This document shows, piece by piece, positions 10,129 through 45,322 of a stretch of 64,000 nucleotides of DNA (the stretch's first letter is position 1; each line of letters begins with the position of its first letter). The stretch covers positions 5,619,501 to 5,683,500 of the forward strand of contig NZ_CP083952.1 in the NCBI RefSeq assembly GCF_006442545.2. Reading direction: 5' to 3'. The stretch comes from Mesorhizobium sp. B2-1-8 (lineage in GTDB: Bacteria > Pseudomonadota > Alphaproteobacteria > Rhizobiales > Rhizobiaceae). A model generated the notes under the pieces. It did no database searches. It was given only the letters and a program-made list of their open reading frames with translations, and was not told the origin of the DNA. Made by a program: the position numbers and the translations under genes.

Positions 10129-11388
10129 TTACTGAAGCTTGGCCTGCAGCGCGTTGACGTCGTCGGTGGTCATTTCACCATCGGTGGTCACCTTGCCGTC
10201 GACGATCTTCCACAGCCGGAACGGGCCGGTAATGTCGCCAAACTTGTCGAAGGCGACCGGACCGATGACGCCTTCATAGCGGATCGGCTTGCCATCCTTG
10301 ATCAGGCCGAGCGCCTTGGCGAATTCTTCCTTGCCGGCATAGATCGGCGTGCCGGCCGGGTCGACCGCCTTGTACATGGCGTCCTTGATCTTGGCCGGAT
10401 CCTCGGAGCCGGCAATCGCGATGGCGAGCCCGACAATGGCGCCGGCATCATAGGAGCGGTCGGCCGCCGGGTTCGACGGTTCGATGCCGGAGAACGCCTT
10501 GTAGTTCTTGGTGAAATACTCCGTCGATGCGGTCGGGCTGGTGCCGGACGACGTGCCATAGGCGTCCTTCAGATAGTCGGCACCGACCGACTCGATGAAA
10601 TCAGGGCTGTTCATGCCGTCATTGAGCAGGAATTTCTGCACGCCGCCCTGCGAAATCCAGGTGCGGGCGATGGTCGCGCCGTCGACGGGCGTGCTGACTA
10701 GGTAAAGCCCATCCGGCTCGCCGGCCATCGCCGCGGTGACTTCCGAGGCATAGCTCGATTGCTTCTCGTTGTAGGGCGTGTCGGAGACGATGGTACCGCC
10801 GAGCGCTTTGTAGGCACGCGAGAATTCGGCCACCATGTTGACGCCGAAGTCGTTGTTGACGTGGATGATCGCCAGCTTCTTGAAGCCCTTGTCGACGGCG
10901 TATTTGGCAGCGGCCACGCCCTGCAGCGCGTCCGAGGTGATGGTGCGGAAGAAGATGCCGTTGGTCTTGCCGTCGCGGCCGAGTGTCGTCAGCGTCGGCG
11001 AAGACGATGCCGGCGAGACCTGGACGATCTTGGCCGGCGCGGTGACAGAGGTCAGGATCGGAATCGACACCGAGGAAATGATGCCACCGATGATGACAGG
11101 CACTTTCTTGACCTGAACCAGCTGGGTGGCGGCGTCGACCGCGATGTTGCCCTGGCTCTGGCTGTCGCGCGTGTCGGTGACGAGATCGCAGCCGCGCACT
11201 CCGCCGGCTTCGTTGATGTCGCGGAACGCCATCTCGACCGACTTGGCGCCGGCTTGGCCGTATTCGCCGGCCGGGCCGGTCAGTTCCATGACGAGGCCGA
11301 CGGTGATCTTGCAATCGGCGGCCTGGGCAGCACTGGCTATCGTGACGAGAGCAAGAGCGGTGGTGAGTTGGAGTATCGTCTTTCTCAT
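10129..11388 (-). CDS. Branched-chain-type ABC importer substrate-binding protein (LivK-like)
   Basis: This 419-residue periplasmic-binding protein of the type I (LivJ/LivK) fold has a signal peptide ending ASAAQAAD. The family opening KITVGLVMELTGPAGEYGQAGAKSVEMAFRDINEAGG is followed by the ligand-site region (VSPASSSPTL). AAGGGGAA precedes ATG 11388. It is the last gene of the GntR-DUF3830-TIGR04076-AKR-SnoaL operon, 47 bp behind the SnoaL gene. It is the obvious partner of the LivG/F/H/M genes on the other strand at 14612-18034, which lack a binding protein of their own. LivK-like proteins bind amino acids, amides, urea or aromatic acids; the ligand here is unknown. Confidence 0.9.
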   Translation of the reverse strand: MRKTILQLTTALALVTIASAAQAADCKITVGLVMELTGPAGEYGQAGAKSVEMAFRDINEAGGVRGCDLVTDTRDSQSQGNIAVDAATQLVQVKKVPVIIGGIISSVSIPILTSVTAPAKIVQVSPASSSPTLTTLGRDGKTNGIFFRTITSDALQGVAAAKYAVDKGFKKLAIIHVNNDFGVNMVAEFSRAYKALGGTIVSDTPYNEKQSSYASEVTAAMAGEPDGLYLVSTPVDGATIARTWISQGGVQKFLLNDGMNSPDFIESVGADYLKDAYGTSSGTSPTASTEYFTKNYKAFSGIEPSNPAADRSYDAGAIVGLAIAIAGSEDPAKIKDAMYKAVDPAGTPIYAGKEEFAKALGLIKDGKPIRYEGVIGPVAFDKFGDITGPFRLWKIVDGKVTTDGEMTTDDVNALQAKLQ

Positions 11389-13270: not shown

Positions 13271-13753
13271 TCAGGCCCCCACCAGGCTGAAGGTGATGTC
13301 GCAGGCGCCGTTGCGGCGGATGATGCAGCAGGCAGCCGCGAATTGATCGCGCTCCTCGGGCTTCACCTGCGCCACCACGCTTCCGGCCAGCCAGCCGATC
13401 GGGAACAGAAGCCGCGCGCCCTGTCCGTAGAACAGGCCGATGTCGAAGATGGCATTGGGATTGCCGCCCCACATGCGCGGCGGCACGTAGGACAACACGA
13501 TGTCGCCCGGCTGCGGCGTCAGTGTCGCATTCTCCGCCGGCAGCGGTTGGGCATAGGCCTGCCCCTCGAGATCGGAGGCAGGAACAGGACAGGAGATCTC
13601 AGGTCCCGTCCACATGGCGTGAATGGCGGGGACGACACGTGGCATGGCGAGATAGGCTGTGAGAAAGGCGCCGTTTTCCGGTGCCTTCCCTGGCAGCAAC
13701 AGCGCCGTGACGGAAAGTTTCGAGCGCGACTCGCTGATCTTGATGGAGGTCAT
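13271..13753 (-). CDS. DUF3830 (cyclophilin-like fold) protein
   Basis: This 160-residue protein has the DUF3830 outline: a short N-terminal strand, PENGAFLTAYLAMPRVVPAIHAMWTG, then PQPGDIVLSYV and IFDIGLFYGQGARLLFPIGWLAGSVVAQV. The family has a cyclophilin-like barrel but no assigned reaction; members often lie beside amino-acid or amide catabolic genes and ABC importers. The start overlaps the stop of the GntR regulator (ATGA at 13750-13753), making it the first structural gene of this operon. Confidence 0.72.
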   Translation of the reverse strand: MTSIKISESRSKLSVTALLLPGKAPENGAFLTAYLAMPRVVPAIHAMWTGPEISCPVPASDLEGQAYAQPLPAENATLTPQPGDIVLSYVPPRMWGGNPNAIFDIGLFYGQGARLLFPIGWLAGSVVAQVKPEERDQFAAACCIIRRNGACDITFSLVGA

Positions 13754-14484
13754 GCCTGGTCTCTCGCGGCGGCGGATTGCAGCTTGCTGCGCAGGAAGGT
13801 GAAGGGCCGGCTGATGTCGGCGGCAAGCGCTTCACGTGCCGCCCGCGCGTCCTGCGTGGCCAGCGCCTCGACGATGCGCCGGTGATACTGGGCGGTGTCG
13901 ACCTCGCCGGCTTCCGAGAAGGCGTAGATGGCGACGCGGATGCAAGGACCTGATTGCAGCCACAGGCTCTCGATCATCGGGATCAGCACGGCCGAGCCGC
14001 AGGAGCGATAGATCTCGAAGTGAAAGCTCTGGTTGAGCGTCACTTCGCGATCGACATCCTTCTTGTGTTTCAGCGCCCGCATCTCGTCCCATTCACCGAG
14101 AATGGTTTCGATGGTGGCTATCTGGCGCGACCCCATGCGGGCGGCGGCCAGCGCGATCGCCTCGCCCTCGATCAGGATGCGGGCCCGCAAGAGATCGTCG
14201 AGGCGTTCCAGCGTGATTGGCGGCACCCGCACCGAACGGTTAGGCAGCGCCTCCAACGCCTTTTCCGTGATCAGCCGGCCAAGCGCCTCGCGCACCGGCA
14301 TGGTCGAGGTGACCAGCGCGTCGGCCAGACCGCGGATGGTCAGCACCTGGCTCGGCTCGAACAGACCGCCGATCAGCGCGCGACGCAGCTCGGAATAGAC
14401 GCGATCCTGCACCGTCTCACGGCCGACCGGCGCGAGCTGGGCCGCGATCGCCTCGTTGTTCTTTTCGATGGCAGCCTTTTGCAT
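13750..14484 (-). CDS. GntR-family (FCD) transcriptional regulator
   Basis: This 244-residue regulator has an N-terminal winged HTH (DRVYSELRRALIGGLFEPSQVLTIRGLADAL, then TSTMPVREALGRLITEKAL with a short wing) and an all-helical FCD domain (ILIEGEAIALAAARMG, LNQSFHFEIYR, QYHRRIVEALATQDA). ATG 14484 gives the usual family length. It is divergent from the LivG gene and heads the operon down to the LivK gene, so it is well placed to control both directions from the palindrome at 14554-14563. The ligand is unknown. Confidence 0.9.
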   Translation of the reverse strand: MQKAAIEKNNEAIAAQLAPVGRETVQDRVYSELRRALIGGLFEPSQVLTIRGLADALVTSTMPVREALGRLITEKALEALPNRSVRVPPITLERLDDLLRARILIEGEAIALAAARMGSRQIATIETILGEWDEMRALKHKKDVDREVTLNQSFHFEIYRSCGSAVLIPMIESLWLQSGPCIRVAIYAFSEAGEVDTAQYHRRIVEALATQDARAAREALAADISRPFTFLRSKLQSAAARDQA

Positions 14485-14539
14485 GGAATTCCGTTCTCGG
14501 CGGGTTTTCGGCTTGCGGAGGAAATTAAAGCCGAATAGC

Positions 14540-14563
14540 GTGATCAAAGCAAGTGTGATCACA
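14540..14563. promoter_or_regulatory. Operator candidate: TGTGATCACA palindrome with a nearby GTGATCA copy
   Basis: A perfect 10-bp palindrome (14554-14563) lies between the GntR gene and the LivG gene. A second GTGATCA begins at 14540, 15 bp before the same heptamer in the palindrome. TGATCA-type cores are common in FCD-GntR operators. The region is AT-rich against a GC-rich background, as expected for a divergent promoter. Confidence 0.5.
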
Positions 14564-14585
14564 AATCAAAAATCAGGAGGCGGCG

Positions 14586-14612
14586 ATGATCGTCTTCGAC
14601 CAGAGGGATTGA
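14586..14612 (+). CDS. Eight-codon leader ORF coupled to the LivG gene
   Basis: A consensus AGGAGG (14575-14580) is followed after five bases by ATG 14586, which opens the eight-residue frame MIVFDQRD. The frame ends at TGA 14610-14612, whose final A is the first base of the LivG ATG (TGATG). The strongest ribosome site in the region thus serves this mini-ORF and not LivG, whose own site (AGAGGG) is weaker. This suggests translational coupling. It could be chance, or the AGGAGG could serve a TTG start at 14609 in the LivG frame. Confidence 0.4.
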   Translation: MIVFDQRD

Positions 14613-15412
14613 TGAGCGAGGCAGCGGAAAGGCAGGGGAAGGAGACCCGTGCGCCGGTTCTGACGGCACGCAACGTCGTCAGGCGGTTCGGCGGCCTTGT
14701 CGCCGTCAACGATGTCTCGTTCGATGTCAAAGCGGGCGAAATCCTTGGCCTGATCGGGCCGAACGGCGCCGGCAAGACGACGATGTTCGACCTGCTCGCC
14801 GGCAGCATCCTGCCCACCAGTGGCGATATCCTTCTCAACGGCGTGCGAGTCTCCGGCGAAGCCGCTCATCTGCGTATCGGTCGAGGTCTCGGCCGCACCT
14901 TCCAGATCCCGCGCCCGCTGCCCAATCTGACGCTGATCGAAAACATCATGCTGGCGGCACAGGGCCAGGCCGGCGAAAGGCTGCTCGCCAACTTCGTCAC
15001 GCCGTGGCGGGTGGCGGCACAGGAAAAAGCCGCCAGGACAAAGGCACTCGAACTGCTGGAACTCGTCACCCTCAGCCATCTCGCCCATGAGCCGGCGCGC
15101 GTGCTTTCCGGCGGCCAGCGCAAGCTGCTCGAACTTGCCCGCGTCATGATGGCGGACCCGGCGATCATCCTGCTCGACGAACCCGCGGCCGGCGTCAACG
15201 CGACGCTGCTCGAAGTCATCATCGACCGCATCCGCGACATCAACGCGCACGGCATCACCTTCCTGCTGATCGAGCACAATATCGACATGGTGACGCGGCT
15301 CTGCCATCGCGTCCTCGTCATGGCGAGTGGCCAGTTGCTCAGCGAAGGCACGGCGGAAGAAGTCGCCCGGGACCCGCGCGTCATCGAGGCCTATCTCGGA
15401 GGCACCGCGTGA
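14612..15412 (+). CDS. LivG-type ABC importer ATPase
   Basis: This 266-residue ATPase of the branched-chain amino-acid class has Walker A GPNGAGKTT, the LivG-specific GRGLGRTFQIPRPL segment, signature LSGGQRKLLELARV, Walker B IILLDEPAAGV and switch IEHNIDMV. It pairs with LivF on the LivH/LivM membrane core. ATG 14612 has an AGAGGG site and overlaps the leader-ORF stop. It is divergent from the GntR gene; the following importer genes overlap by 4 bp each, so this is one operon. Confidence 0.92.
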   Translation: MSEAAERQGKETRAPVLTARNVVRRFGGLVAVNDVSFDVKAGEILGLIGPNGAGKTTMFDLLAGSILPTSGDILLNGVRVSGEAAHLRIGRGLGRTFQIPRPLPNLTLIENIMLAAQGQAGERLLANFVTPWRVAAQEKAARTKALELLELVTLSHLAHEPARVLSGGQRKLLELARVMMADPAIILLDEPAAGVNATLLEVIIDRIRDINAHGITFLLIEHNIDMVTRLCHRVLVMASGQLLSEGTAEEVARDPRVIEAYLGGTA

Positions 15413-16149
15413 GCCAGACCGTCCTCGATATCCGCAATCTCGAAGCGGGTTATGAACCTGGCGTACCGATCGTGCGCGGCGCCTCGATCACCGTAGAAAA
15501 GGGTGAGATCGTCGTCGTCCTCGGCCCCAATGGCGCCGGCAAGTCGAGCTTCATCAAGGCGATCGCCGGCCTGATCCCGATCACCGGCGGCACGGTATTG
15601 CTGGACGGCAAGGACATCACCGCCGCACCGGCGCACACCATGGTGCGGCTTGGCCTCGCCTTCGTGCCGCAGACCGAGAACATCTTTCCGCTGATGTCGG
15701 TCGAGGACAATCTGAGGGTTGCCTGCGGCATCCTCGACCGTCGCGAAATCCCCGGCCGCATCGAGGAGATGTATGCCGCCTTTCCCGATCTCGTCCGCCA
15801 GCGCCGCACCGCCGCCGGCAATCTGTCGGGCGGCCAGCGGCAGATGCTCGCGGTCGCTCGGGCGCTGATCATCCATCCCAAGGTGCTGGTGTTGGACGAA
15901 CCGTCGGCCGGCCTGTCGCCGAAATTCGTCGCGATGGTTTTCGAGATGCTGGGCGGCATCCGCAAGTCCGGAGTCACCATCCTTTTGGTCGAGCAAAACG
16001 CCAAGGCTGCACTTGCCATCGGCGACCGCGCTTATGTGCTGGTCGAGGGCAGGGACCGGCACGAGGGCATTGCCTCCGAACTGTGGAACGACCCGGTCGT
16101 GGCCGAACTCTATCTCGGCCGGCGCCCTCAGCAGGGAGGCGCGGCATGA
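15409..16149 (+). CDS. LivF-type ABC importer ATPase
   Basis: This 246-residue second ATPase of the importer has Walker A GPNGAGKSS, signature LSGGQRQMLAVARA, Walker B VLVLDEPSAGL, and the LivF-like GLAFVPQTENIFPLMSVEDNL. It starts with GTG overlapping the LivG stop (GTGA), and its own stop overlaps the next ATG. It is cytoplasmic and works with LivG. Confidence 0.92.
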   Translation: MSQTVLDIRNLEAGYEPGVPIVRGASITVEKGEIVVVLGPNGAGKSSFIKAIAGLIPITGGTVLLDGKDITAAPAHTMVRLGLAFVPQTENIFPLMSVEDNLRVACGILDRREIPGRIEEMYAAFPDLVRQRRTAAGNLSGGQRQMLAVARALIIHPKVLVLDEPSAGLSPKFVAMVFEMLGGIRKSGVTILLVEQNAKAALAIGDRAYVLVEGRDRHEGIASELWNDPVVAELYLGRRPQQGGAA

Positions 16150-17054
16150 GCCTGCAATTTATCGTCGACGGATTGCTGACGGGCTCGATGATCGGCCTCG
16201 GCGCCATCGGCGTGACGCTCACCTATTCGATCCTGCGCTTCTCGAACTTCGCGCATGGCGACTTCATGGCCTGGGGCACCTATGCGACGCTGACCATGGT
16301 CAGCGCCATCGGCGCAACATTCGGCAAGGTCGCGCCGATCGCGCCGCTGTCGTTCGGCTGGCCGCTCCTCGTTGCATTGATCGTCGGCATGGCATTTACC
16401 GCCTTGTTGGCGCTGCTGCTCGACAAGGTGTTGTTCTCGCGGCTGCGCTCGCAGGGCCAGGCGATCATCGTGGTGATGGCGAGTTTCGGCGCCTCGATGG
16501 CGCTACGCAGCCTGCTCGAATTCACCTTCACCTCGCGGCCGACCTATTTCAGCCGGGCGATCCAGATCGCCATGCCGGTCGGCTTCGGCATCCGCATCAC
16601 ACCCGACCAGATCGCCCTGCTGCTGCTGACGGCCGTACTCGTGTTCGGCGTGCATCTGTTGATCACGCGTACTCAAGTCGGCCGCTCGATGCAGGCCTTG
16701 AGCCAGAACGCGGCACTGGCCCGCATCGTCGGCATCGACGTTGCCAGCGTGGTGCGGGTGACCTGGATCATCGGCGGCGCGCTCGCCTGCGTGGCGGGCG
16801 TGATGATCGGCATCCTGGTGCAGATCCGACCGTTCATGGGCTTCGACATGCTGCTGCCCATGTTCGCCGCCGCCATTTTGGGCGGCATCGGCAGCATCCC
16901 GGGGGCGGTGCTCGGCGGCTTGATCATCGGGCTCGCCGAAGCCGGCGCGGTGCAACTGATTGGCGCCGAGTGGCGTGCCGCCGTCTCCTTCATCATCCTC
17001 ATGGCGGTACTGTTCGTGCGGCCGATCGGCCTTTTCGGAGTTCGGGAAAGATGA
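16146..17054 (+). CDS. LivH-type ABC importer permease
   Basis: This 302-residue permease of the branched-chain class has about eight hydrophobic helices, the family opening LQFIVDGLLTGSMIGLGAIGVTLTYSILRFSNFAHGDFMAWG and the coupling segment around MLLPMFAAAILGGIGSIPGAVLGG. ATG 16146 overlaps the LivF stop. It forms the translocation pore with LivM. Confidence 0.92.
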   Translation: MSLQFIVDGLLTGSMIGLGAIGVTLTYSILRFSNFAHGDFMAWGTYATLTMVSAIGATFGKVAPIAPLSFGWPLLVALIVGMAFTALLALLLDKVLFSRLRSQGQAIIVVMASFGASMALRSLLEFTFTSRPTYFSRAIQIAMPVGFGIRITPDQIALLLLTAVLVFGVHLLITRTQVGRSMQALSQNAALARIVGIDVASVVRVTWIIGGALACVAGVMIGILVQIRPFMGFDMLLPMFAAAILGGIGSIPGAVLGGLIIGLAEAGAVQLIGAEWRAAVSFIILMAVLFVRPIGLFGVRER

Positions 17055-18034
17055 TCGATCTCATCGGCTACGGCGCGTTCTTCCTGACCACGGCGCTCAT
17101 TTTCTCGCTGGTCACGCTCGGGCTCAACCTGCAATGGGGCCTGACCGGCCTGTTCAATGTCGGCCTCGCCGGTTTTGTTGCCATCGGCGCCTACACCTCG
17201 GCACTGCTGACGACACCGGACGACCCCGCGCGGCTTGGCGGCTTCGGCCTGCCCATCCTCGCCGGCTGGGCGGGCGCCATGGTCGTTGGCGGTATTGCCG
17301 CGGCACTTACCGGCATGGCGACGCTGCGTCTTAGATCCGACTATCTGGCGATCACCACCTTCGGCGTTGCCGTCGTCGTGCAACTGGTCGCACTCAACGC
17401 ACAGAAACTGACCGGCGGACCATTCGGCATCGGCTTCATCCCGCGTCCGTTCGGCAGCCTCGCCGAGACGCCGCTGCTGTTCAACCTGTCGAGCCTGGCC
17501 ATTGTTTGCGCTGTGACGCTGATTGCCTATCTCGCCTTGGAACACCTGTCGCGAAGCCCGTGGGGCCGCGTGCTGAAGGCGCTGCGCGAGGACGAGCGGG
17601 CGGCGATTTCGCTCGGCAAGAGCGCGCGCTTCTACCGTGTCCAGGCCTTTGCCGTCGGTGGCGCCATCATGGCCCTGGCCGGCGCACTGCAGGCGCATTT
17701 CACCGGCTTCATAGCGCCGGACAATTACCTGCCGATCCTGACCTTTCAGGTCTGGGTGATGCTGATCGTCGGCGGCTCGGGTAGCAATCTTGGCGCCGTC
17801 ATCGGCAGCATACTGGTCTGGGCGATCTGGGCAGGGTCGGGCACGCTGACCAGCGTGCTGTTTGCGCCCGAGCAGCAGGCGCGCGCCGCCTCGCTGCAGA
17901 TCGTCGCGATCGGTGTCATGCTTTGCGTCATCCTTCTGGTCAGGCCGAACGGGTTGTTCGGCGACAGGCCGCGGCGGCCGCGCTTTGGCAAGCGCAGGCG
18001 GATCGCTACGGACAAAAGCAGTTCCGGCTCATGA
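17051..18034 (+). CDS. LivM-type ABC importer permease
   Basis: This 327-residue partner permease has the LivM hallmarks LGLNLQWGLTGLFNVGLAGFVAIGAY, LRSDYLAITTFGVA and LTFQVWVMLIVGGSGSNLGAVIGS. ATG 17051 overlaps the LivH stop. The frame is open far upstream through LivH, but that is only the high-GC shadow of the neighbouring gene. The C-terminus is basic and cytoplasmic, and its stop overlaps the ATG of the oxidase, so import and oxidation are encoded together. Confidence 0.92.
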   Translation: MIDLIGYGAFFLTTALIFSLVTLGLNLQWGLTGLFNVGLAGFVAIGAYTSALLTTPDDPARLGGFGLPILAGWAGAMVVGGIAAALTGMATLRLRSDYLAITTFGVAVVVQLVALNAQKLTGGPFGIGFIPRPFGSLAETPLLFNLSSLAIVCAVTLIAYLALEHLSRSPWGRVLKALREDERAAISLGKSARFYRVQAFAVGGAIMALAGALQAHFTGFIAPDNYLPILTFQVWVMLIVGGSGSNLGAVIGSILVWAIWAGSGTLTSVLFAPEQQARAASLQIVAIGVMLCVILLVRPNGLFGDRPRRPRFGKRRRIATDKSSSGS

Positions 18035-19335
18035 ATGCCCCGGTCCGGCAGGGTGCGAATGGCACTTCGCTCTGGCATGCTATCAACCGCGATCACCGGG
18101 AACGGCCGACGCTGCAAGGCAGGCTCGATGTCGATCTGGCCATCGTCGGCGGTGGATTTTCCGGTCTGTCGACCGCGCTGCACGCCGCGGAAAAAGGCAT
18201 CTCGGTCGCTGTGCTCGAAGCCGAAATCATCGCCTGGGGCGCGACCGGCCGGAACGCGGGTTTCGTCGTACCGAACTTCGCCAAGATGGACCCCGATAGC
18301 ATTCTCGCGCATCTCGGCTCCGAACGCGGCCAAAGGCTGGTCGATTTCGCCGCCGGCAGTGCCGACCTCGTCTTCGGCCTGATCCGGCGGCACGGCATCG
18401 ACTGCGACGCGGTGCAGAACGGATGGATCCAGCCGGCGCACTCGCCGGCCGCCCTGGAGAAGGTCAAATCACGTGCGGGACAGTGGGCGCGGCGTGGCCG
18501 GCCTGTCGTCACCCTGGATCGGCGAGAGGTCGAAGCGCTGACCGGCGTGCGCGGCTATGTCGGTGGCTGGATGGATCGCTCCGGCGGCGTGCTCAATCCC
18601 GTCGCCTATGCACGCGGACTGGCCGATGCGGCGGAAAAGGCCGGCGCGCGGATTTTCGAGCGGACACGTGTCACGTCGGTCGATCGCATAGCCGATGGCT
18701 GGGCGCTGAAAACGCCATCGGGCTCGGTGCGCGCGGCCAGGGTGCTGATCGCCACCAACGCCTATGGCGGGTCGCTCATTCCTTTGCTGCAGCGGACTTA
18801 TTTTCCGCTCAAGGTTTTCCAGATCGCGACCGCGCCACTACCGCTCGAAATCCGCCCGCGTTTGCTGCCTGGCGGACAGGGCGTCGGCGATACCAGGCGC
18901 AATCTCTTCACCTTTCGCTTCGACGCCGACAACCGGCTGATCAGCGGCGGCATGCATATTCTCGGCGCCGGCGCCGATATGCGCGTGCCGCAAACAATCT
19001 GGCGGCGGCTTGCCAGCCACCTCGACCTGCCTGATTTGCCGCAGCTTGCCTACAGTTGGTCGGGGATGGCGGCGGTCGAGCCGGATTTCCTACCGCACCT
19101 CCTGGACCTCGGCCCGGGGCTGATCGCCGGCCGCGCCTGCAATGGACGCGGCATCGCCATGACCACGGCGATGGGCAAGGTGCTGGCCGACTGGGCCGCT
19201 GGAGCCGAAGCGCGTGATTTGCCGCTGCCCTTTGCACCGCCGGCGCCAATCCCATTCCATACCCTGTTGCGGCACGCACCCAACATGCTGCATGGCTGGA
19301 GCATTCTGCGTGACCGGATGGACCACGCGGCATAG
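18031..19335 (+). CDS. DAO-family FAD-dependent amine/amino-acid oxidoreductase
   Basis: This 434-residue flavoenzyme has the Rossmann motif VDLAIVGGGFSGLSTALHAAEKG and the second FAD-contact sequence IIAWGATGRNAGFVVPNF, typical of the glycine oxidase / gamma-glutamylputrescine oxidase (PuuB-like) branch. The C-terminal FAD-closing region is GPGLIAGRACNGRGIAMTTAMGKVLADW. It would oxidise a secondary or primary amine to an imine and then a carbonyl. It is the last gene of the Liv operon, with its start on the LivM stop (ATGA), so its substrate is probably the imported compound or an early product. Confidence 0.88.
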   Translation: MNAPVRQGANGTSLWHAINRDHRERPTLQGRLDVDLAIVGGGFSGLSTALHAAEKGISVAVLEAEIIAWGATGRNAGFVVPNFAKMDPDSILAHLGSERGQRLVDFAAGSADLVFGLIRRHGIDCDAVQNGWIQPAHSPAALEKVKSRAGQWARRGRPVVTLDRREVEALTGVRGYVGGWMDRSGGVLNPVAYARGLADAAEKAGARIFERTRVTSVDRIADGWALKTPSGSVRAARVLIATNAYGGSLIPLLQRTYFPLKVFQIATAPLPLEIRPRLLPGGQGVGDTRRNLFTFRFDADNRLISGGMHILGAGADMRVPQTIWRRLASHLDLPDLPQLAYSWSGMAAVEPDFLPHLLDLGPGLIAGRACNGRGIAMTTAMGKVLADWAAGAEARDLPLPFAPPAPIPFHTLLRHAPNMLHGWSILRDRMDHAA

Positions 19336-19351: not shown

Positions 19352-20008
19352 TCAGCGCGCCGTGCGAAGATTCTCGGAGAGAATAGCGGCCGCCGCCGCG
19401 ATGTCCTGCTCGAGGGAAGCTCGAACGGCTGGACCGTTGCGTTGTTCCAGCGCGGCGACGATCCTTCGGTGCGCGTCGTTGGACTGCGGAATGTAGCGAT
19501 CAGCCCGCATCAGGAGCTTGAGATAGGGTCCAACCCGACCCCAGAGATCGCGGATCATGTTCAAGAGGATCGGCGCGCCGGCATGCTCATAGATAGCGAA
19601 ATGGAAGGCCTCGTTCAGGGAGAGATAGGTCGTGGCGTCTTGCGCCTCGATGGCCCGCTGCATCCCGGTGAGCGCGACCTGTATGTCCACCAGCGCGCGC
19701 TCACTCATCCGCGTGGCGGCCATCTCGCCCGCCAGCCCCTCGACGGCGATGCGGATGCGCGTCAGTTCCTCGAAAGCGGAATCGGACAGCAAGGGCACGA
19801 TGATCGAGCGGTTGTTCTGCATTTCCAGAAGCCGCTCGGCGACCAGCCTTTGCAATGCCTCTCGGATCGGGGTGGTCGAAATGCCGAAGGTTTCGGCGAG
19901 CTTGCGGATGACCAGGGTCTGGCCCGGACTGAACCCGCCTGAAATCAATTCCTGCTTGAGCGCGCCATAGGCGCGGTCATTGAGGGTTTGATGCTCGAGC
20001 TTCAGCAT
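19352..20008 (-). CDS. GntR-family (FCD) transcriptional regulator
   Basis: This 218-residue regulator has a winged HTH at the N-terminus (DRAYGALKQELISGGFSPGQTL, then GISTTPIREALQRLVAERLL) and an FCD domain (RIAVEGLAGEMAATRMS, LNEAFHFAIYEHAG, DAHRRIVAALEQR). ATG 20008 fits the family; the frame upstream belongs to the overlapping aminotransferase end. It is the last gene of the M20-kinase-aminotransferase operon, 13 bp after the aminotransferase, and converges with the oxidase gene. It resembles, but is distinct from, the GntR at 13750. Confidence 0.9.
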   Translation of the reverse strand: MLKLEHQTLNDRAYGALKQELISGGFSPGQTLVIRKLAETFGISTTPIREALQRLVAERLLEMQNNRSIIVPLLSDSAFEELTRIRIAVEGLAGEMAATRMSERALVDIQVALTGMQRAIEAQDATTYLSLNEAFHFAIYEHAGAPILLNMIRDLWGRVGPYLKLLMRADRYIPQSNDAHRRIVAALEQRNGPAVRASLEQDIAAAAAILSENLRTAR

Positions 20009-20021
20009 GCGCCTGCTCGGC

Positions 20022-21311
20022 TCACCATTTCGACAGTGCGCGGTCGAGCGTCTCGGCCAGTTGCTCGGCATTGTCCCTGGAAAAAGGCAGCGGCGGCCTG
20101 ATCTTCAGCACATTGCCGCGCGGACCGCAGGACGAAATCAGCACGCCGTCCTCGCGCATGGCTTCGACGACGGATGAGGTCTTGGCGGCGGCGGTGGCCT
20201 CATCATCCGCCATCAGCTCGACGCCGAAATAGAGGCCATTGTGTCTGATATCGGCGACCATGCCGTGCCGGCTCTGCAAGGCGCGCAGCAGGTCGCCCGT
20301 ATAGGCGCCGACGTTGGATGCATTCTCGATCAGCCCCTCGCCTTCGATCACCTCGAGCACGGCGATGCCGACGGCGGCCGCGACCGGGTTGCCACCGAAG
20401 GTGTTGAAGTAGCCGGTGTTCGAGCCGAACGAGCTCACCAGTTGCGGCCGCACGATCACCGCACCCATTGGATGCCCATCGCCGATCGGCTTGCCCATGG
20501 TGACGATGTCAGGCTCGAGGCCATAATTGGCGAAGCCCCACATGCCCTGGCCGAGCCGGCCGAAACCGGACTGGACCTCGTCGGCGATGACGATGCCACC
20601 CGCTTTCCTGACATGATCGGCCGCCTCGCGCATGACAGAAGCATCGGGGAAAAAGATGCCGTCACTGGAAAAGGCGGAATCGAGAAGCAGCGCCGCCGGA
20701 CGGATGTTTTGCGCGCGCATATCCTCGATGGCGGCGGCGACATTTCTGCCGAAATCATGCGCGGCGCGGCCGCCGTCGCGGAACGTGTCCGGCGCTGCTA
20801 CGGTGCGATGCTGCGCGGGTACGCCCTTGGCCCCGACCGCCGCCGGCGACAGCTGCGCCGTCGCGATGGTGGCGCCGTGATAGGCGAAATCGGTGATGAT
20901 CACGCCGGTGTTGCCGCTGCAGTGCTGGGCGATGCGGATGGCGAGGTCGTTGGCCTCGCTGCCGGTGCAGGTGAACATGGCGTGGCCGAGATGGGATGGA
21001 AGCGTGCCGAGAAGCTTTTCCGCGTAGTCGAGGATGATCTCGCTGAGATAGCGCGTGTGCGTGTTGAGCGTGGCGGCCTGTCCCGAAAGCGCCTCGACGA
21101 CGCGCGGATGGCAGTGTCCGACCGAAGCGACGTTGTTGTAGGCGTCGAGGAATCTTCGGCCCTGCGCATCGTAGAGCCATACACCGCTGCCGCGCACCAG
21201 ATGGATCTGATTGCGGTAAAAGGCGCGATAGGTCGGCCCGAGCAACCTGGCGCGGCGTTCGAGCAGCGCGCGCTCGGCATCGGCGGAGGCACTTGGAAAG
21301 GACTGGGACAC
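20022..21311 (-). CDS. Class III PLP enzyme of the ethanolamine-phosphate / 5-phosphohydroxylysine phospho-lyase (AGXT2L) type
   Basis: This 429-residue enzyme has the fold-type I aminotransferase III layout with Asp244 (IADEVQ) and the PLP lysine at 274 in DIVTMGKPIGDGHPMGAV. Several stretches recall the AGXT2L (ETNPPL/PHYKPL) ammoniophospholyases rather than ordinary transaminases: LDAYNNVASVGHCHPRVVEA, LNTHTRYLSE, TGSEANDLA and YFNTFGGNPVAAAVG. Those enzymes eliminate phosphate and ammonia from a phosphorylated amino alcohol to give an aldehyde. The GTG start at 21311 has GGAGTAG upstream. The adjacent kinase gene (6 bp away) is what such a lyase needs. A plain transaminase remains possible. 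Confidence 0.78.
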   Translation of the reverse strand: MSQSFPSASADAERALLERRARLLGPTYRAFYRNQIHLVRGSGVWLYDAQGRRFLDAYNNVASVGHCHPRVVEALSGQAATLNTHTRYLSEIILDYAEKLLGTLPSHLGHAMFTCTGSEANDLAIRIAQHCSGNTGVIITDFAYHGATIATAQLSPAAVGAKGVPAQHRTVAAPDTFRDGGRAAHDFGRNVAAAIEDMRAQNIRPAALLLDSAFSSDGIFFPDASVMREAADHVRKAGGIVIADEVQSGFGRLGQGMWGFANYGLEPDIVTMGKPIGDGHPMGAVIVRPQLVSSFGSNTGYFNTFGGNPVAAAVGIAVLEVIEGEGLIENASNVGAYTGDLLRALQSRHGMVADIRHNGLYFGVELMADDEATAAAKTSSVVEAMREDGVLISSCGPRGNVLKIRPPLPFSRDNAEQLAETLDRALSKW

Positions 21312-21317
21312 GGGCGT

Positions 21318-22376
21318 CTACTCCGGCTTGGAATGGTCGAGGAAATAGCGGCGGGCTTCAGCGGACGACAGCCCGTCCAGCCGTTCGAGCGAGGCCCAGA
21401 CCTCGGTGATGAGGCGCAGGACATAGTCACGCTTGGCGGGAAACCGCTCGGCCTGCCAGCTGGCGATGTTGGCAATGAGCGCAAGCCGGGCACGAATGAG
21501 GTGGAAGAGAATGCCAAGCTCTTCGATCTCGAGCGGCTGCACCGACTGATAGCCGGCGACGAAGCGAGCCGCAGGCGCCAGCGGATGACCTTCGGCCGGC
21601 CAGCGATAGACGGCACCGATGGCGAGATCGCAGATCAGCGGCGAGTGGATCATGTCGCCGAAATCGAGGATGCCGCTGACCATTTCCGGCCGCGAGGCAT
21701 CCATCACCACATTGTAGGAATTCATGTCGTTGTGGACGATCTGGGCGCGCAGCCCGGGGATGACCGGCGCCGCATGTTCCTCGAAAGCATCGATGACACG
21801 CTCGACCATGGCGCGATGGCCGGCGTCGGCGATATACGCCAGCATCGGCCGTGTCTTGGCGACCTTGCGGATGTCCCAAAGTAGGTCGCTGCCGGCGGCC
21901 GGGTGGAAGAAGCCGCGCAGTGCCCGGCCAAGCCGGGCGAGGAAGATGCCGAGATTGCGATCCTGCGCCGCTGACGTAGGCGAGCGCGAAAGCAGCTGGC
22001 CGGGTAGATAGGTAACCAGCCTGACGATGCGCGGCGCCGATCCGCCGACGCTGACCGTAAACTGCGCTTCGCCTTCGAGGCTCTTGCGCACCGAGGGAAC
22101 GGGCAAGGCCGGGTCGACCGTCAGGATGTGGTCGAGCGCCTTGTTCTGGAAATCGGTGAAGCCGGCCTCTTCCGCCGGATGCGAGACCTTCAGGACGAAG
22201 TCGCCCTCGCCTCCTGTCTTGATATGGAAGTTGTGATCGCGTTCGCCCGGCAGCGGGCGCGCGCTGCCGGTGAGCCCGTAGTGCAGGCGCAACAGGGCAA
22301 GCGCCTCGGCGATCGAAACGTCAGGCGCATCCTCGGCGAGCGTGTCGCCGAAGGCATCCGACACGGCCGCGTTCAT
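21318..22376 (-). CDS. APH-fold small-molecule kinase, hydroxylysine-kinase-like
   Basis: This 352-residue kinase of the aminoglycoside/choline kinase superfamily has Lys63 in FVLKVSHP, the catalytic loop VHNDMNSYNVVMD (His215, Asp217, Asn222) and the metal motif GILDFGDM (Asp238). The VSGILDFGDM segment and the N-terminal PLPGERDHNFHI resemble the hydroxylysine kinase (HYKK/AGPHD1) branch, which phosphorylates a hydroxyl on an amino-acid side chain. ATG 22376 overlaps the M20 stop (ATGA). Together with the phospho-lyase it would form a phosphorylate-then-eliminate route. Homoserine, ethanolamine or another amino alcohol could be the substrate. Confidence 0.78.
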   Translation of the reverse strand: MNAAVSDAFGDTLAEDAPDVSIAEALALLRLHYGLTGSARPLPGERDHNFHIKTGGEGDFVLKVSHPAEEAGFTDFQNKALDHILTVDPALPVPSVRKSLEGEAQFTVSVGGSAPRIVRLVTYLPGQLLSRSPTSAAQDRNLGIFLARLGRALRGFFHPAAGSDLLWDIRKVAKTRPMLAYIADAGHRAMVERVIDAFEEHAAPVIPGLRAQIVHNDMNSYNVVMDASRPEMVSGILDFGDMIHSPLICDLAIGAVYRWPAEGHPLAPAARFVAGYQSVQPLEIEELGILFHLIRARLALIANIASWQAERFPAKRDYVLRLITEVWASLERLDGLSSAEARRYFLDHSKPE

Positions 22377-23677
22377 GGCCCGACCTCGGGCTGGATGGGT
22401 TCGAGACCGCACCAGTCGGCGATGAAGAGCGCGATGGTCTGGGTGACCTTGCGCACGGAGTCGAGATCGACGGCCTCGTCATAGCCATGCGGCATGCGGC
22501 AGATCGGGCCGTAGACGATCGCCGGCGTGTCGGCATAGAGGCCGAAGAAGCGGGCATCGGTGGTGGCCGAGGTGACATGTTCCGTCAGCGGCTCGCCCCA
22601 TACGGCGGTGTGGCTGCGCCGCAGTACGGCTTCCATCTCGTCGGCGCCTTCCAGCACGTAGCCCTCGGCCATGAAGCCGTTATAGGTCATTCTGGGCGGG
22701 CGATTGGCGAGAAACGGATCGGCGCGCGCCGCATCGGCGATGCAGGCCTCGAGTTCGGCCCTGGCATCCTCCAGCTTCTGGCGGGGATAGGTCGCGACCC
22801 GCATCTCGAAGATACAGCGCGCCGGTACGCTCGATGTCCATTCGCCGCCTTCGATCTTGCCGAGGTTGAAACGGATCGGGTGCGGATGATCGCAGAAATG
22901 CGGATCATCGACCTTGCGCGCGTTCCAGACGATTTCGAGCTGCTTCAGCGCCTGGATGATGAGGAAGGCCTTCTCGATGGCATTGGCGCCGGCGGAAAAG
23001 GCGCCCGACGCGTGCTGCGGATCGCCGTCGACCTCGACCCTGAACCAGATCGGGCCGACCTGTGCCCGCATCAGCCTTGGTTCCAGCGGCTCGGGAATGA
23101 AGGCGGCATCGGCGCGGTAGCCACGCTGCAGGCAAGCGAGCGCGCCGTTGCCGGTGCACTCCTCCTCTACGACCGACTGCAGGAACACTTTCGCCGCTGG
23201 CTGATAGCCGAGGCCGCGCAAGGCGGCCAGCGCATAGAGGCAGGCCGACAGGCCGGCCTTCATGTCGCCGGCGCCTCGGCCATGCATCCAGCCGTCCTCG
23301 ATCGCCGGATCGTAGGGGTTTCGCACCCAGCGGTCGAGCGGTCCCGTCGGCACCACGTCGATATGGCCGTTGAGGATCAGCGACCGACCGGTGGCATTTC
23401 TCGGCGCGTGGGTGGCGACGACGTTGAAGGCATCGTCATACGAAACCGCGACGGGTGAAAATCCGGGCAGGTCGCGGATAGCATCGACATCGACAGGCCA
23501 CATATCGACCGAATAGCCATTGGCTTCATAAGCAGCCGCCATGAAGGATTGCGCGGCATGTTCCTCGCCGCGTTGCGAGGGAAAGCGCACGAGATCGGCC
23601 AGGAAGGCGAGCTGGCGGTCGAAGCCTTCGTCGACTGCCCGCAAAATGGCCTCATCCGCAATTCGCTCAGGCATCAT
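22373..23677 (-). CDS. M20-family (ArgE/DapE) deacylase
   Basis: This 434-residue dinuclear-zinc amidohydrolase has the first metal His in LILNGHIDVVP, the bridging Asp in GRGAGDMKAG, the base/metal Glu pair in SVVEEECTGNG, and the lid-domain signature PARCIFEMRVATYPRQ. It removes an acyl group from an N-acyl amino acid or peptide-like substrate. Tandem ATGs at 23677/23674 follow a GGGAAAGCGG site. It is first in the operon with the kinase, phospho-lyase and GntR, so it may free the amino group before phosphorylation (inference). Confidence 0.88.
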   Translation of the reverse strand: MMPERIADEAILRAVDEGFDRQLAFLADLVRFPSQRGEEHAAQSFMAAAYEANGYSVDMWPVDVDAIRDLPGFSPVAVSYDDAFNVVATHAPRNATGRSLILNGHIDVVPTGPLDRWVRNPYDPAIEDGWMHGRGAGDMKAGLSACLYALAALRGLGYQPAAKVFLQSVVEEECTGNGALACLQRGYRADAAFIPEPLEPRLMRAQVGPIWFRVEVDGDPQHASGAFSAGANAIEKAFLIIQALKQLEIVWNARKVDDPHFCDHPHPIRFNLGKIEGGEWTSSVPARCIFEMRVATYPRQKLEDARAELEACIADAARADPFLANRPPRMTYNGFMAEGYVLEGADEMEAVLRRSHTAVWGEPLTEHVTSATTDARFFGLYADTPAIVYGPICRMPHGYDEAVDLDSVRKVTQTIALFIADWCGLEPIQPEVGP

Positions 23678-23694
23678 ATTCCGCTTTCCCACGA

Positions 23695-23716
23695 ATGATG
23701 TATCATATCTCATATG
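23695..23716. promoter_or_regulatory. Paired inverted repeats in the M20/GNAT divergent region
   Basis: ATGAT-GT-ATCAT (23695-23706) is directly followed by an overlapping dyad CATAT-CTC-ATATG (23704-23716). Both are perfect and AT-rich in a GC-rich setting, just upstream of the M20 start. They are candidates for the binding site of the operon's own GntR regulator (19352-20008). The rest of 23717-23850 shows no gene. Confidence 0.45.
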
Positions 23717-23850
23717 CCATTTCGAATAGACAAGAAGACAGGCGGGCCAAAATGATGGCCCACCCCTGGAGCCTCTTGGCAGGCGGTCGCAGAGTTGGCA
23801 TCAGCTTCTTGACATGTCGGCAAAGCTGCGCGGCGGAAGATCGAGGACAG

Positions 23851-24498
23851 ATGCAAGTCACCGAGGGCGTATTGCCGGATGAAATCACCGACCTCGCGTC
23901 CGGCTACCGACGTGTGCCGGCCGGCAAGATCGTCAATGCGGTGACGTGGATGGAGGCGCGCGCGCCGGTGCAGGGTCTCGCCCAACCCTTGGCCATGACG
24001 CGCGTCACCGAGCCCGACCCCGCCGTCTACCGCGCGGTCTTCCTGGAGATCGGCGCACCCTGGCTCTGGGACCGCGCCGCCGAAATGTCGGACGCCGACA
24101 TCGCGGCGCATTTCGCCGACCCACGCCAGCATCTCTATTACGGCCATGATGAAAGCGGCGGCCGTGTCGGCATGGTCGAATTCTCGGTTACCGACAGCAA
24201 CGAGATCGAGATCACCTATTTCGGCCTGTTCCCTTCCTTGACCGGCCGAGGCTTCGGCAAACGGCTGATGGCTGGCGCGCTCGATCAGGCATGGCGCCTG
24301 GAGCCCAGCCGCATCTGGCTGCACACCAGCAGCTTCGATCATCACAGCGTCATCGGTTTCTACGGAGCTTGCGGGTTTGAACCCTATGCGGCTGGTTTCG
24401 AGATCACCGACGATCCGCGGATCAAGGGAACCCTGCCGCGCGGTGCGGCCCCGCAAATCCCGTTGATCGAGACCGAATGGGTGCCCGGCGCCAGATGA
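23851..24498 (+). CDS. GNAT-family N-acetyltransferase
   Basis: This 215-residue protein has its acetyl-CoA-binding core in the centre: VGMVEFSVTDSNEIEITYFGLFPSLTGRGFGKRLMAGALDQAW (the RGFGKRLM loop is the pyrophosphate-binding motif A), then a motif B helix near HHSVIGFYGACGFEP. ATG 23851 is preceded by GAGGACAG; earlier ATGs in frame lack family sequence. It transfers an acetyl group to an amine; the substrate is unknown. It is divergent from an M20 deacylase gene, so acetylation and deacylation of related compounds may be linked. Confidence 0.85.
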   Translation: MQVTEGVLPDEITDLASGYRRVPAGKIVNAVTWMEARAPVQGLAQPLAMTRVTEPDPAVYRAVFLEIGAPWLWDRAAEMSDADIAAHFADPRQHLYYGHDESGGRVGMVEFSVTDSNEIEITYFGLFPSLTGRGFGKRLMAGALDQAWRLEPSRIWLHTSSFDHHSVIGFYGACGFEPYAAGFEITDDPRIKGTLPRGAAPQIPLIETEWVPGAR

Positions 24499-24568: not shown

Positions 24569-26215
24569 TCAGCTCGCCTGCGGCGCCGGCAGGCGCTCGC
24601 GCAATTCGTCGACAAGCACCCTGGTGTTTTCGGAATAGTCGATCGGCACGACCACGAGGTGGACCCCGCCGTCGGTGAAGGCCTGTTCCAGCGCCGGCCG
24701 CAATTCGGCGATCGCGCTGACCCTGGTCCCCCTGGCGCCGTAGGCCTCGGCGTATTTGACGAAATCGGGATTGCCGAAGGTCATGCCGAAATCGGGAAAT
24801 TCATCGACCGCCTGCTTCCAGCGGATCATGCCATAGGCATGGTCTTCCAGCAGCAGGACGACGAGGTTGAGCTCGAGCCTGACAGCCGTCTCTAGTTCCT
24901 GGCTGTTCATCATGAAGCCGCCATCGCCGCAAATGGCCATGACACGGCGCTGGGGATAGAGCAGCGCCGCCATCATCGCCGACGGCAGCCCGGCGCCCAT
25001 GGTGGCCAGCGCGTTGTCGAGCAGCAGCGTGTTTGCCATGCGCGTGCGGTAGTTGCGGGCGAACCAGATCTTGTACATGCCGTTGTCCAGCGCGAGGATG
25101 CCGTCGGCCGGCATCACGGCGCGCACGTCGTGCACGATGCGCTGCGGCGTGAAGCGGTCTTCGGTGGCGCGCGCGGCGATGCGGCTCAAAATGCCTTCGC
25201 GCAGCGGCAGCAGGGCCTGCGCATTGGGGATCTTGCCTTCGACGCGATCGGCCAGCAGCGCCAGCGACGGACCGAGGTCGCCGACGATTTCCGCTTGCGG
25301 AAAATAGACCTGCTCGACATCGGCCGTCTGGTAGCCGACATGGATGACCTTCGGTCCCTTCGCGCCCATGATGAAGGGCGGTTTCTCGACCGTATCGTGG
25401 CCGATGGTGATGATCAGGTCGGCCTGCTCGATGGCCTCGTGGACATAGTCGCGTTCCGAAAGGGCCGCCGTTCCCATGTAGAGTTCGGTGCCGCCGGGCA
25501 CCGTGCCCTTGCCCATCTGCGTGGTGAAATAGGGTATCTGCGTGCGCAGGACGAACTGGGCGACATCAGGGGTCACGCGCGGCCGCGACGCCGCCGCGCC
25601 GAACATCAGCAGCGGACGCTTGGCCTCGATGATCATGCGGGCGGCGCGATCGAGCGCGCCAGCGCTGGCTAGGGGCAGTTCGACCGGATGCGTCGGCACC
25701 AAGGCAATCGGTTCGCACTCCGCCGCCGCGATATCTTCCGGCAGTTCCAGATGCACAGGGCCGGGGCGTTCTTCCTGTGCGACGCGGAAGGCTTCTCGCA
25801 CCAAGGACGGAATCATCTTCGGCGAGACGATCTGGCGCGACAGCTTGGTCAGCGGCTTCATCGCCGCGACGATATCGACGATCTGGAAGCGAGCCTGCCT
25901 GGACGACAGGATGCCCTTCTGTCCGGTGATCATGATCATCGGCATCGCGCCGAGCAGCGCATAGGCCGAGCCGGTCGTCAGATTGAGCGCGCCGGGGCCG
26001 AGCGTGGTGATGCACACACCCGGCTTGCCGGTAAGCCTGCCATAGGTGGCGGCCATGAAGGCGGCCGCCTGCTCGTGGCGGGTCAGGATCAGCTGGATCG
26101 ACGAGCGGCGGATGGATTCGACAATGTCGAGATTTTCCTCGCCCGGAATACCGAAAATCCGATCGACTCCTTCGTTCTCGAGGGCCGCCACGAACAGATC
26201 CGAACCTTTGGTCAT
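24569..26215 (-). CDS. Thiamine-diphosphate enzyme, acetolactate-synthase-like large subunit
   Basis: This 548-residue three-domain TPP enzyme has the catalytic Glu48 in TRHEQAAAFMA, PyrF-domain sequence GPGALNLTTGSAYA, and the TPP/Mg motif GDGGFMMNSQELETAVRLEL ending in LLLEDHAYGMIRW. In that last motif the usual Asn pair is Glu-Asp, nearer to catabolic AlsS-like enzymes than to anabolic IlvB. It would condense pyruvate with pyruvate or another aldehyde/keto acid. ATG 26215 has GGAGAG upstream. No small regulatory subunit (IlvN) is beside it. It stands alone; a convergent GNAT gene lies 70 bp beyond its end. Confidence 0.82.
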   Translation of the reverse strand: MTKGSDLFVAALENEGVDRIFGIPGEENLDIVESIRRSSIQLILTRHEQAAAFMAATYGRLTGKPGVCITTLGPGALNLTTGSAYALLGAMPMIMITGQKGILSSRQARFQIVDIVAAMKPLTKLSRQIVSPKMIPSLVREAFRVAQEERPGPVHLELPEDIAAAECEPIALVPTHPVELPLASAGALDRAARMIIEAKRPLLMFGAAASRPRVTPDVAQFVLRTQIPYFTTQMGKGTVPGGTELYMGTAALSERDYVHEAIEQADLIITIGHDTVEKPPFIMGAKGPKVIHVGYQTADVEQVYFPQAEIVGDLGPSLALLADRVEGKIPNAQALLPLREGILSRIAARATEDRFTPQRIVHDVRAVMPADGILALDNGMYKIWFARNYRTRMANTLLLDNALATMGAGLPSAMMAALLYPQRRVMAICGDGGFMMNSQELETAVRLELNLVVLLLEDHAYGMIRWKQAVDEFPDFGMTFGNPDFVKYAEAYGARGTRVSAIAELRPALEQAFTDGGVHLVVVPIDYSENTRVLVDELRERLPAPQAS

Positions 26216-26308
26216 GAACCGTCTCTCCTGCAATGCTGGCATTCCGTCAGCCACCTTCATATGGCACCGGAATGCGACACCTCAAAGAGGCAGTTCGCCT
26301 GCCAGCGA

Positions 26309-45245: not shown

Positions 45246-45322
45246 TTTGTTGGTCCTCGTTTGTTAGGGCTGGAGCTGTTTCAACTCCGTTGAATCGGGC
45301 TCCAGCTAGTTCTTTTTGTCGC

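Follow-up and report, generated by a model that had tools for sequence, protein, structure and literature searches.

A deacylase-led kinase and phospholyase operon in Mesorhizobium, a candidate unit for the use of an amide-masked beta-hydroxyamine

What would a root-nodule bacterium do with an operon that sets a deacylase ahead of a kinase and of an enzyme recorded in public databases as an aminotransferase? The question is raised by Mesorhizobium sp. B2-1-8, in a stretch of 64,000 nt (contig NZ_CP083952.1, 5619501-5683500) that is analysed here as a whole and called the window, with positions counted from its first letter. On the minus strand, and in the sense of transcription, the operon comprises an M20 (ArgE/DapE-type) metallo-deacylase (22373-23677), an APH-fold small-molecule kinase (21318-22376, start ATG), a class III fold pyridoxal phosphate (PLP)-dependent enzyme, putatively an ammoniophospholyase by homology (20022-21311, GTG start), and a GntR/FCD regulator (19352-20008), which probably controls the four-gene unit. 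The nearest named proteins, at 94% identity, are those of Mesorhizobium. We propose that the operon probably, though by no means securely, serves the breakdown of a beta-hydroxyamine that is masked as an amide.

The PLP enzyme offers the firmest ground. Compared with all solved chains, it scored 362 bits to 5g4i, listed as a phospholyase, and 334 bits to 6tor (human ETNPPL, ethanolamine-phosphate phospho-lyase), while the next class III chain reached only 161 bits. In a 91-row tree (the window, 80 lyase loci, a paralog from the same genome, three PDB rows and six other class III proteins), built by a quick method with no bootstrap and with a 7-row outgroup on long branches, 84 rows including the window, 5g4i and ETNPPL were separated from the seven other class III rows by a branch whose Shimodaira-Hasegawa-like approximate likelihood ratio test (SH-aLRT) value is 99. 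The PLP lysine and aspartate (K274 and D244) are conserved in all 91 rows. N60, R87 and K403 occur in 84/84 rows of the clade and R405 in 83/84, and all four are found in none of the seven outgroup rows; the basic residues among them may hold the phosphate. The three Mesorhizobium rows carry D278, D223 and H357; among the other 81 rows, N, P and G are the residues at these positions in 78, 72 and 73, respectively. Homology thus strongly supports membership of the phospholyase family and, with it, the predicted elimination step. The first-pass annotation of this DNA had likewise put the class III enzyme with ETNPPL and the phospholyases rather than with ordinary transaminases; the scores, the tree and the family residues uphold this placement, which covers one half of the test that the annotation had itself proposed. 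Since the names on record for these lyases are those of aminotransferases, a phosphate-releasing, non-transaminating route of deamination is probably widely misannotated.

The kinase next to this lyase was placed by comparing lyase loci, namely the best 80 of 584 confirmed ones in a scan across named genomes of bacteria and archaea, a set biased to near relatives, in which type A and type B kinases were labelled from phmmer and BLAST clusters of stop-to-stop frames. Type A, the window type, adjoins the lyase in 48/80 loci, and in four of them (L003, L017, L027 and L052) kinase and lyase share one open frame. A second APH kinase lineage, type B, is present in 25 loci and also in L065, one of the seven loci at first assigned to neither type, so that an APH-fold kinase of either lineage stands near the lyase in 74 of the 80. 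Against the aminopropanol kinase 6ef6, the type B kinases of all 25 loci scored 84-292 bits and type A kinases at most 35 bits; by these scores, two lineages of kinase are paired with a single family of lyases, a contrast that would help to predict substrates from gene context. The window kinase matched 6ef6 with an E value of 0.02 and does not belong to the sequence lineage of this (S)-1-amino-2-propanol kinase; we know of no characterised bacterial member of the type A lineage. It has the APH fold, with the catalytic D/N and the DFGD motif present. Its structural model is nearest in fold to homoserine and N-acetylhexosamine kinases, followed by 6ef6 and the amicoumacin kinase AmiN, which tie (Z 24.7 and 24.5), and by the aminoglycoside kinases lower down. 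No HYKK entry was found among the 50 rows of this comparison, which excludes nothing.

The deacylase that opens the operon matched the NCBIfam model PRK06837 with 668 bits (cut-off 376), and its nearest solved chain is 3pfo (368 bits). The two have in common GHIDVV, the D of GDM, EEE, IPEP and a C-terminal PH, which we take to be the metal-site motifs of the ArgE/DapE type, intact in the window protein. Relatives of this M20 enzyme (269-946 bits) were found at 11 of the 80 loci, every one of them type A: 11/48 type A loci versus 0/32 others (Fisher p 0.0025) or versus 0/25 type B loci (p 0.012), neither value being corrected for kinship. The 11 loci come from Mesorhizobium, Achromobacter, Microvirga, Acidovorax, Sulfitobacter, Bradyrhizobium, Paracoccus and Falsochrobactrum; mapped on the lyase tree, the presence of M20 takes seven changes or more. 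By alignment ends, six of these loci have the gene less than 100 nt from the kinase or lyase, upstream in L001, L002, L008, L022 and L029 and downstream in L017. Elsewhere in the Mesorhizobium sp. B2-1-8 genome, M20 matches exceed 60 bits only twice, with 75 bits at best, so M20 neighbours are not a common background there.

Scans of neighbouring families, run on chosen representatives and with some loci stopping early at contig ends, revealed further amide-bond hydrolases at type A loci: an HDAC-like cluster at nine (two tested representatives are PF00850), a carbamoylase-type M20 cluster at five (L005 and L009 tested) and a gamma-glutamyltransferase (GGT) cluster at three (L063 tested). Taken together, M20 or one of these three clusters occurs within 9 kb in 17/48 type A and 0/25 type B loci (p 0.0003, uncorrected). 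The common theme could be a hydrolase that frees the amine ahead of phosphorylation, and, judged from these genomes, the deacylase-led form with a type A kinase is the unusual part, seen in several distant lineages.

Within the genus the association is tight. In 99 sampled Mesorhizobium genomes, for which at most 17 first-look candidates were scored per genome and lyase counts are lower bounds, the lyase was present in at least 34, the kinase in 33 and a close M20 copy (>900 bits) in 33; the three co-occur in the same 33 genomes and adjoin on one contig in 33/33, their places being compared by eye. Because kinase and M20 sit beside the lyase in 33 of the 34 lyase-bearing genomes, the four-gene arrangement is not due to chance. 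The recurrence of M20, at 11/80 loci and in 33 genomes of the genus, bears out the first-pass suggestion that it is a partner of the kinase-lyase pair. The exception, G174, has the lyase alone, directly behind an acetolactate synthase gene (L085, G174:C210:254000-263000); no GNAT, M20 or kinase gene was found in the stretch examined, and only a short piece of the GntR gene matches. This locus appears as a naturally reduced copy of the operon.

The layout of the unit is compact: the M20 stop and the kinase start overlap by 4 nt (ATGA), kinase and lyase are 6 nt apart, and the gap from lyase to GntR is about 13 nt if the inner ATG of the latter is used. That ATG lies at 20008 in an open reading frame listed to 20071, and the start is approximate. 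The M20 frame extends over 22373-23713, but translation more likely begins at an inner ATG, at 23677; of the 33 close copies in the genus, 13 have a TGA within the aligned stretch, which seems to precede the true start. All of the Pfam assignments exceed their cut-offs (PF01546 and PF07687 for M20, PF01636 for the kinase, PF00202 for the PLP enzyme, PF00392 and PF07729 for GntR/FCD). The four genes, their coordinates and the motifs VSGILDFGDM, YNNVASVGHCHP, LNTHTRYL and MGKPIGDGHP, all present in the translations, lie where they had been annotated, and the description of M20 in front and GntR behind is correct in transcription order.

From these elements a three-step pathway can be drawn. The M20 enzyme would hydrolyse an amide to give a free primary amine; the kinase, as its fold and its pairing suggest, would phosphorylate the hydroxyl on the carbon adjoining the amine-bearing one; and the PLP enzyme would form an aldimine with the amine and eliminate phosphate, after which the enamine would be hydrolysed to ammonia and an aldehyde. 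We hold it very probable that the kinase and lyase core carries out this phosphorylation and elimination, and somewhat better than an even chance that M20 acts upstream of them in the same pathway; both the order, M20 before the kinase, and the masking group are suggested by gene association. Near type A loci, an aldehyde dehydrogenase of the aminobutyraldehyde type exceeds its cut-off in L033, and others, under their cut-offs, are succinate-semialdehyde-like in L053 and phenylacetaldehyde-like in L027. As these point to different aldehydes, the substrates probably differ among type A units. The operon of Mesorhizobium sp. B2-1-8 is a clean case with a deacylase as the entry step, and would show which amide-bound hydroxyamine root-nodule bacteria use.

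Several observations weigh against this interpretation. M20 is not adjacent to the pair in 5 of the 11 M20 loci, and in L016 some 5 kb separate the GGT gene from the lyase. Within 9 kb, 31/48 type A loci, some of which end early at contig ends, show no member of the four hydrolase clusters, so a deacylase does not appear to be essential to the module. Two genomes of the genus, G162 and G209, carry an M20 relative (519 and 480 bits; 57 and 54% identity) with no lyase at threshold, amid an NMT1-type binding protein and an ABC gene or amid CoA-transferase and thiolase genes, so the M20 family of the window seems to have other jobs as well. The active-site columns of the lyases display no pattern that separates those linked to ethanolamine permeases, to aromatic pathways and to M20. 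Finally, Foldseek ranked AmiN second for the window kinase, ahead of 6ef6.

The last point is relevant to the idea of an antibiotic-modifying operon, in which the APH enzyme and the divergent GNAT would inactivate an antibiotic. Both folds are indeed present (PF01636 and GNAT), and, besides its Foldseek rank and its tie in Z with 6ef6, AmiN came third in the profile search; homoserine kinase nevertheless stands ahead of it by fold and 6ef6, first in the profile search, by sequence profile, and the kinase is firmly coupled to a phospholyase and a deacylase, which makes inactivation of an antibiotic very unlikely. The first-pass reading of the kinase, against which a preference for aminoglycosides or choline would have counted, is supported in so far as homoserine and N-acetylhexosamine kinases are the nearest and aminoglycoside kinases lower, with the antibiotic kinase AmiN and 6ef6 tied in between. 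Likewise, the public names, aspartate or 4-aminobutyrate aminotransferase, would suit an ordinary transaminase next to a kinase that serves another process. This is hardly credible and was rejected: the scores (362 and 334 versus 161 bits), the clade with SH-aLRT 99, the family-specific residues and the conserved pairing with a kinase all contradict it.

More serious are other substrates for the same chemistry. Were the operon an ethanolamine or 1-amino-2-propanol module, acetaldehyde or propanal would be made, and M20 would free N-acylethanolamines or be incidental. The names of the two solved lyases of the family, phospholyase and ethanolamine-phosphate phospho-lyase, speak for this, as does an ethanolamine permease cluster in 7/25 type B loci (TIGR00908 over cut-off for L024, the sole member tested); however, that cluster is found in 0/48 type A loci (p 0.0003, uncorrected) and the window kinase lies outside the aminopropanol-kinase lineage, and we regard such a module as unlikely here. 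Quite unlikely, too, is a 5-hydroxylysine route as in vertebrates (HYKK followed by PHYKPL), with M20 cutting hydroxylysine peptides or N-acyl-hydroxylysine and with 2-aminoadipate semialdehyde as the product. The chemistry fits, and pipecolate oxidase, which yields this semialdehyde as well, is the closest match of the DAO oxidase beside the operon, yet the match of 305 bits is far below the cut-off of 600. Nickel/peptide-type transporter genes stand at other type A loci, where the one binding protein tested was under curated cut-offs. Six aldehyde dehydrogenases in the vicinity of type A loci were compared, and piperideine-6-carboxylate dehydrogenase was the best match of none; apart from that of L033, the five under cut-off were closest to BADH-, aminobutyraldehyde-, SSADH- or phenylacetaldehyde-type enzymes. 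Hydroxylysine as the substrate is thus not favoured, in a comparison that placed the window enzymes without HYKK or PHYKPL sequences. The window further encodes an ectoine hydrolase, EutD (44070-45263, minus strand; TIGR02993, 823 bits, cut-off 613), which brings to mind a hydroxyectoine branch, where deacetylated hydroxy-diaminobutyrate would be phosphorylated and eliminated to aspartate semialdehyde. Although this chemistry would fit as well, EutD is present in 92/99 genus genomes versus at least 34/99 for the lyase, so its distribution does not follow that of the operon. At the 80 loci no relative of EutD (E 1e-10) was found, in flanks that extend 10 kb at the most and would miss a link spanning the 20-odd kb seen in the window. 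We consider this branch scarcely conceivable and set it aside.

How does the proposed pathway relate to known systems? The chains 5g4i and 5g4j are presumably the PLP phospholyase of Arthrobacter aurescens (A1RDF1), active on phosphoethanolamine and reportedly described by Cuetos et al. in 2016. By score, tree and family residues it is of the same family as the window lyase, and it differs in grouping with type B-lineage lyases (a 20-row set with SH-aLRT 98); we know of no deacylase linked to it. An amino alcohol kinase and a phospho-lyase were reportedly found in Erwinia by Jones, Faulkner and Turner in 1973, and the vertebrate pairing of HYKK with PHYKPL/ETNPPL is said to go back to Veiga-da-Cunha et al. 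in 2012; the two-step logic is alike there, and ETNPPL is homologous to the window lyase at the 334 bits given above. The kinase 6ef6 is said to be the (S)-1-amino-2-propanol kinase of the aminoacetone-utilization (Aut)/Rhodococcus and Mycobacterium microcompartment (RMM), according to Mallette and Kimber in 2018.

According to two papers, the Rhodococcus/Mycobacterium cluster, like the window, unites a phosphotransferase (an APH-fold kinase), an aminotransferase-like PLP enzyme, read there as an aminotransferase, and a GntR regulator (PMC6620236, PMC4207490). The 6ef6 kinase lineage of that cluster differs from the type A of the window, and an RMM/Aut microcompartment was rejected for Mesorhizobium sp. 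B2-1-8, whose genome gave no match to the shell family PF00936 in a search that was positive in 2 of 14 control genomes. PbfA, described as (R)-1-hydroxy-2-aminoethylphosphonate ammonia-lyase (PMC8154272), is similarly a lyase of class III fold, with a 1,2-hydroxyamine as its substrate; its elimination, however, proceeds without a phosphate ester step, and the window lyase scores 188 bits to its model (cut-off 525). A paper on human cytosolic transaminases mentions the two vertebrate lyases (PMC9283133), and another on springtail lysine metabolism is on topic (PMC5200902). Given a bacterial phospholyase and an aminopropanol kinase in the PDB, the Rhodococcus/Mycobacterium cluster and PbfA, the two-step chemistry is already of a known kind in bacteria, and the deacylase-led operon with a type A kinase is a variant of it. 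The phosphorylate-and-eliminate mechanism put forward in the first-pass annotation accordingly keeps its core, supported by the lyase family and the pairing, and loses its novelty for bacteria, as 5g4i and 6ef6 attest.

A wider sample illustrates how variously this core is combined. Among 151 genomes at the family level, with at most 11 first-look candidates scored in each and lyase counts again lower bounds, at least 61 lyase matches were found in 40 genomes, 20 of the 61 in open frames of at least 1000 aa. All three of the fusions examined (L082:211-3285, L083:547-3651 and L084:1676-4993; 1025-1106 aa) run APH kinase, Peptidase_M23, class III PLP enzyme. Their kinase and lyase halves match those of the window, which in turn fit opposite ends of the PRK06148 model; they differ in being one polypeptide and in that M23 is another hydrolase fold than the M20 of the window. 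It is conceivable, if still tentative, that kinase and phospholyase form a plug-in deamination module serving many beta-hydroxyamines, with the aminopropanol-kinase-like type B for free amines, ethanolamine-type and aromatic ones among them, and type A joined repeatedly with unrelated unmasking hydrolases (M20, HDAC-like, carbamoylase, GGT, fused M23) for amide-bound amines; the window would then hold an as yet undescribed pathway of three steps, in the form that a deacylase leads.

A second module resides in the same genome, where near position 731500 of C1 another lyase (50% identity) accompanies a type B kinase. This module (C1 about 725950-741250, L081:1956-17255) has aldehyde dehydrogenases as neighbours, together with HpaD and HpaE, which both exceed their cut-offs. 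Similar settings occur in Rhizobium (L056; HpaD and HpaE over cut-off), in Marinobacterium (L028; HpaE, the HpaG C-terminal subunit and HpaI over cut-off, together with a phenylacetaldehyde-dehydrogenase-like protein at 703 bits versus a cut-off of 850) and, by similarity to L081, in L072. Such homoprotocatechuate genes suggest that octopamine/noradrenaline-like aromatic beta-hydroxyamines may be turned into phenylacetaldehydes by phosphorylation and elimination, a separate lead that supports the general reading of the chemistry.

Around the operon, a DAO-family oxidase using flavin adenine dinucleotide (17923-19335, plus strand, convergent; NF050086) is a possible accessory, and its cluster (c11) occurs near 8/48 type A and 0/25 type B loci (p 0.045, uncorrected). 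Also convergent are branched-chain-type ABC transporter genes (14456-18034, plus; two ATPases and two permeases, of which the permease at 16083-17054 is PF02653 and the other three were assigned by eye), a possible uptake system, and a GNAT acetyltransferase (23695-24498, plus; PF00583) diverges from M20; relatives of both the transporter and the GNAT genes stand beside the operon in L001 and L002. By eye, a periplasmic binding protein and a second GntR-like regulator were placed at 10129-11388 and 13750-14562 (minus); these two, the transporter and the oxidase may share the substrate of the operon. Upstream lies an acetolactate synthase large subunit gene (24569-26260, minus; PRK08322, 817 bits, over cut-off), and thiamine pyrophosphate enzymes are also found near the lyases of L005, L006, L010 and L029.

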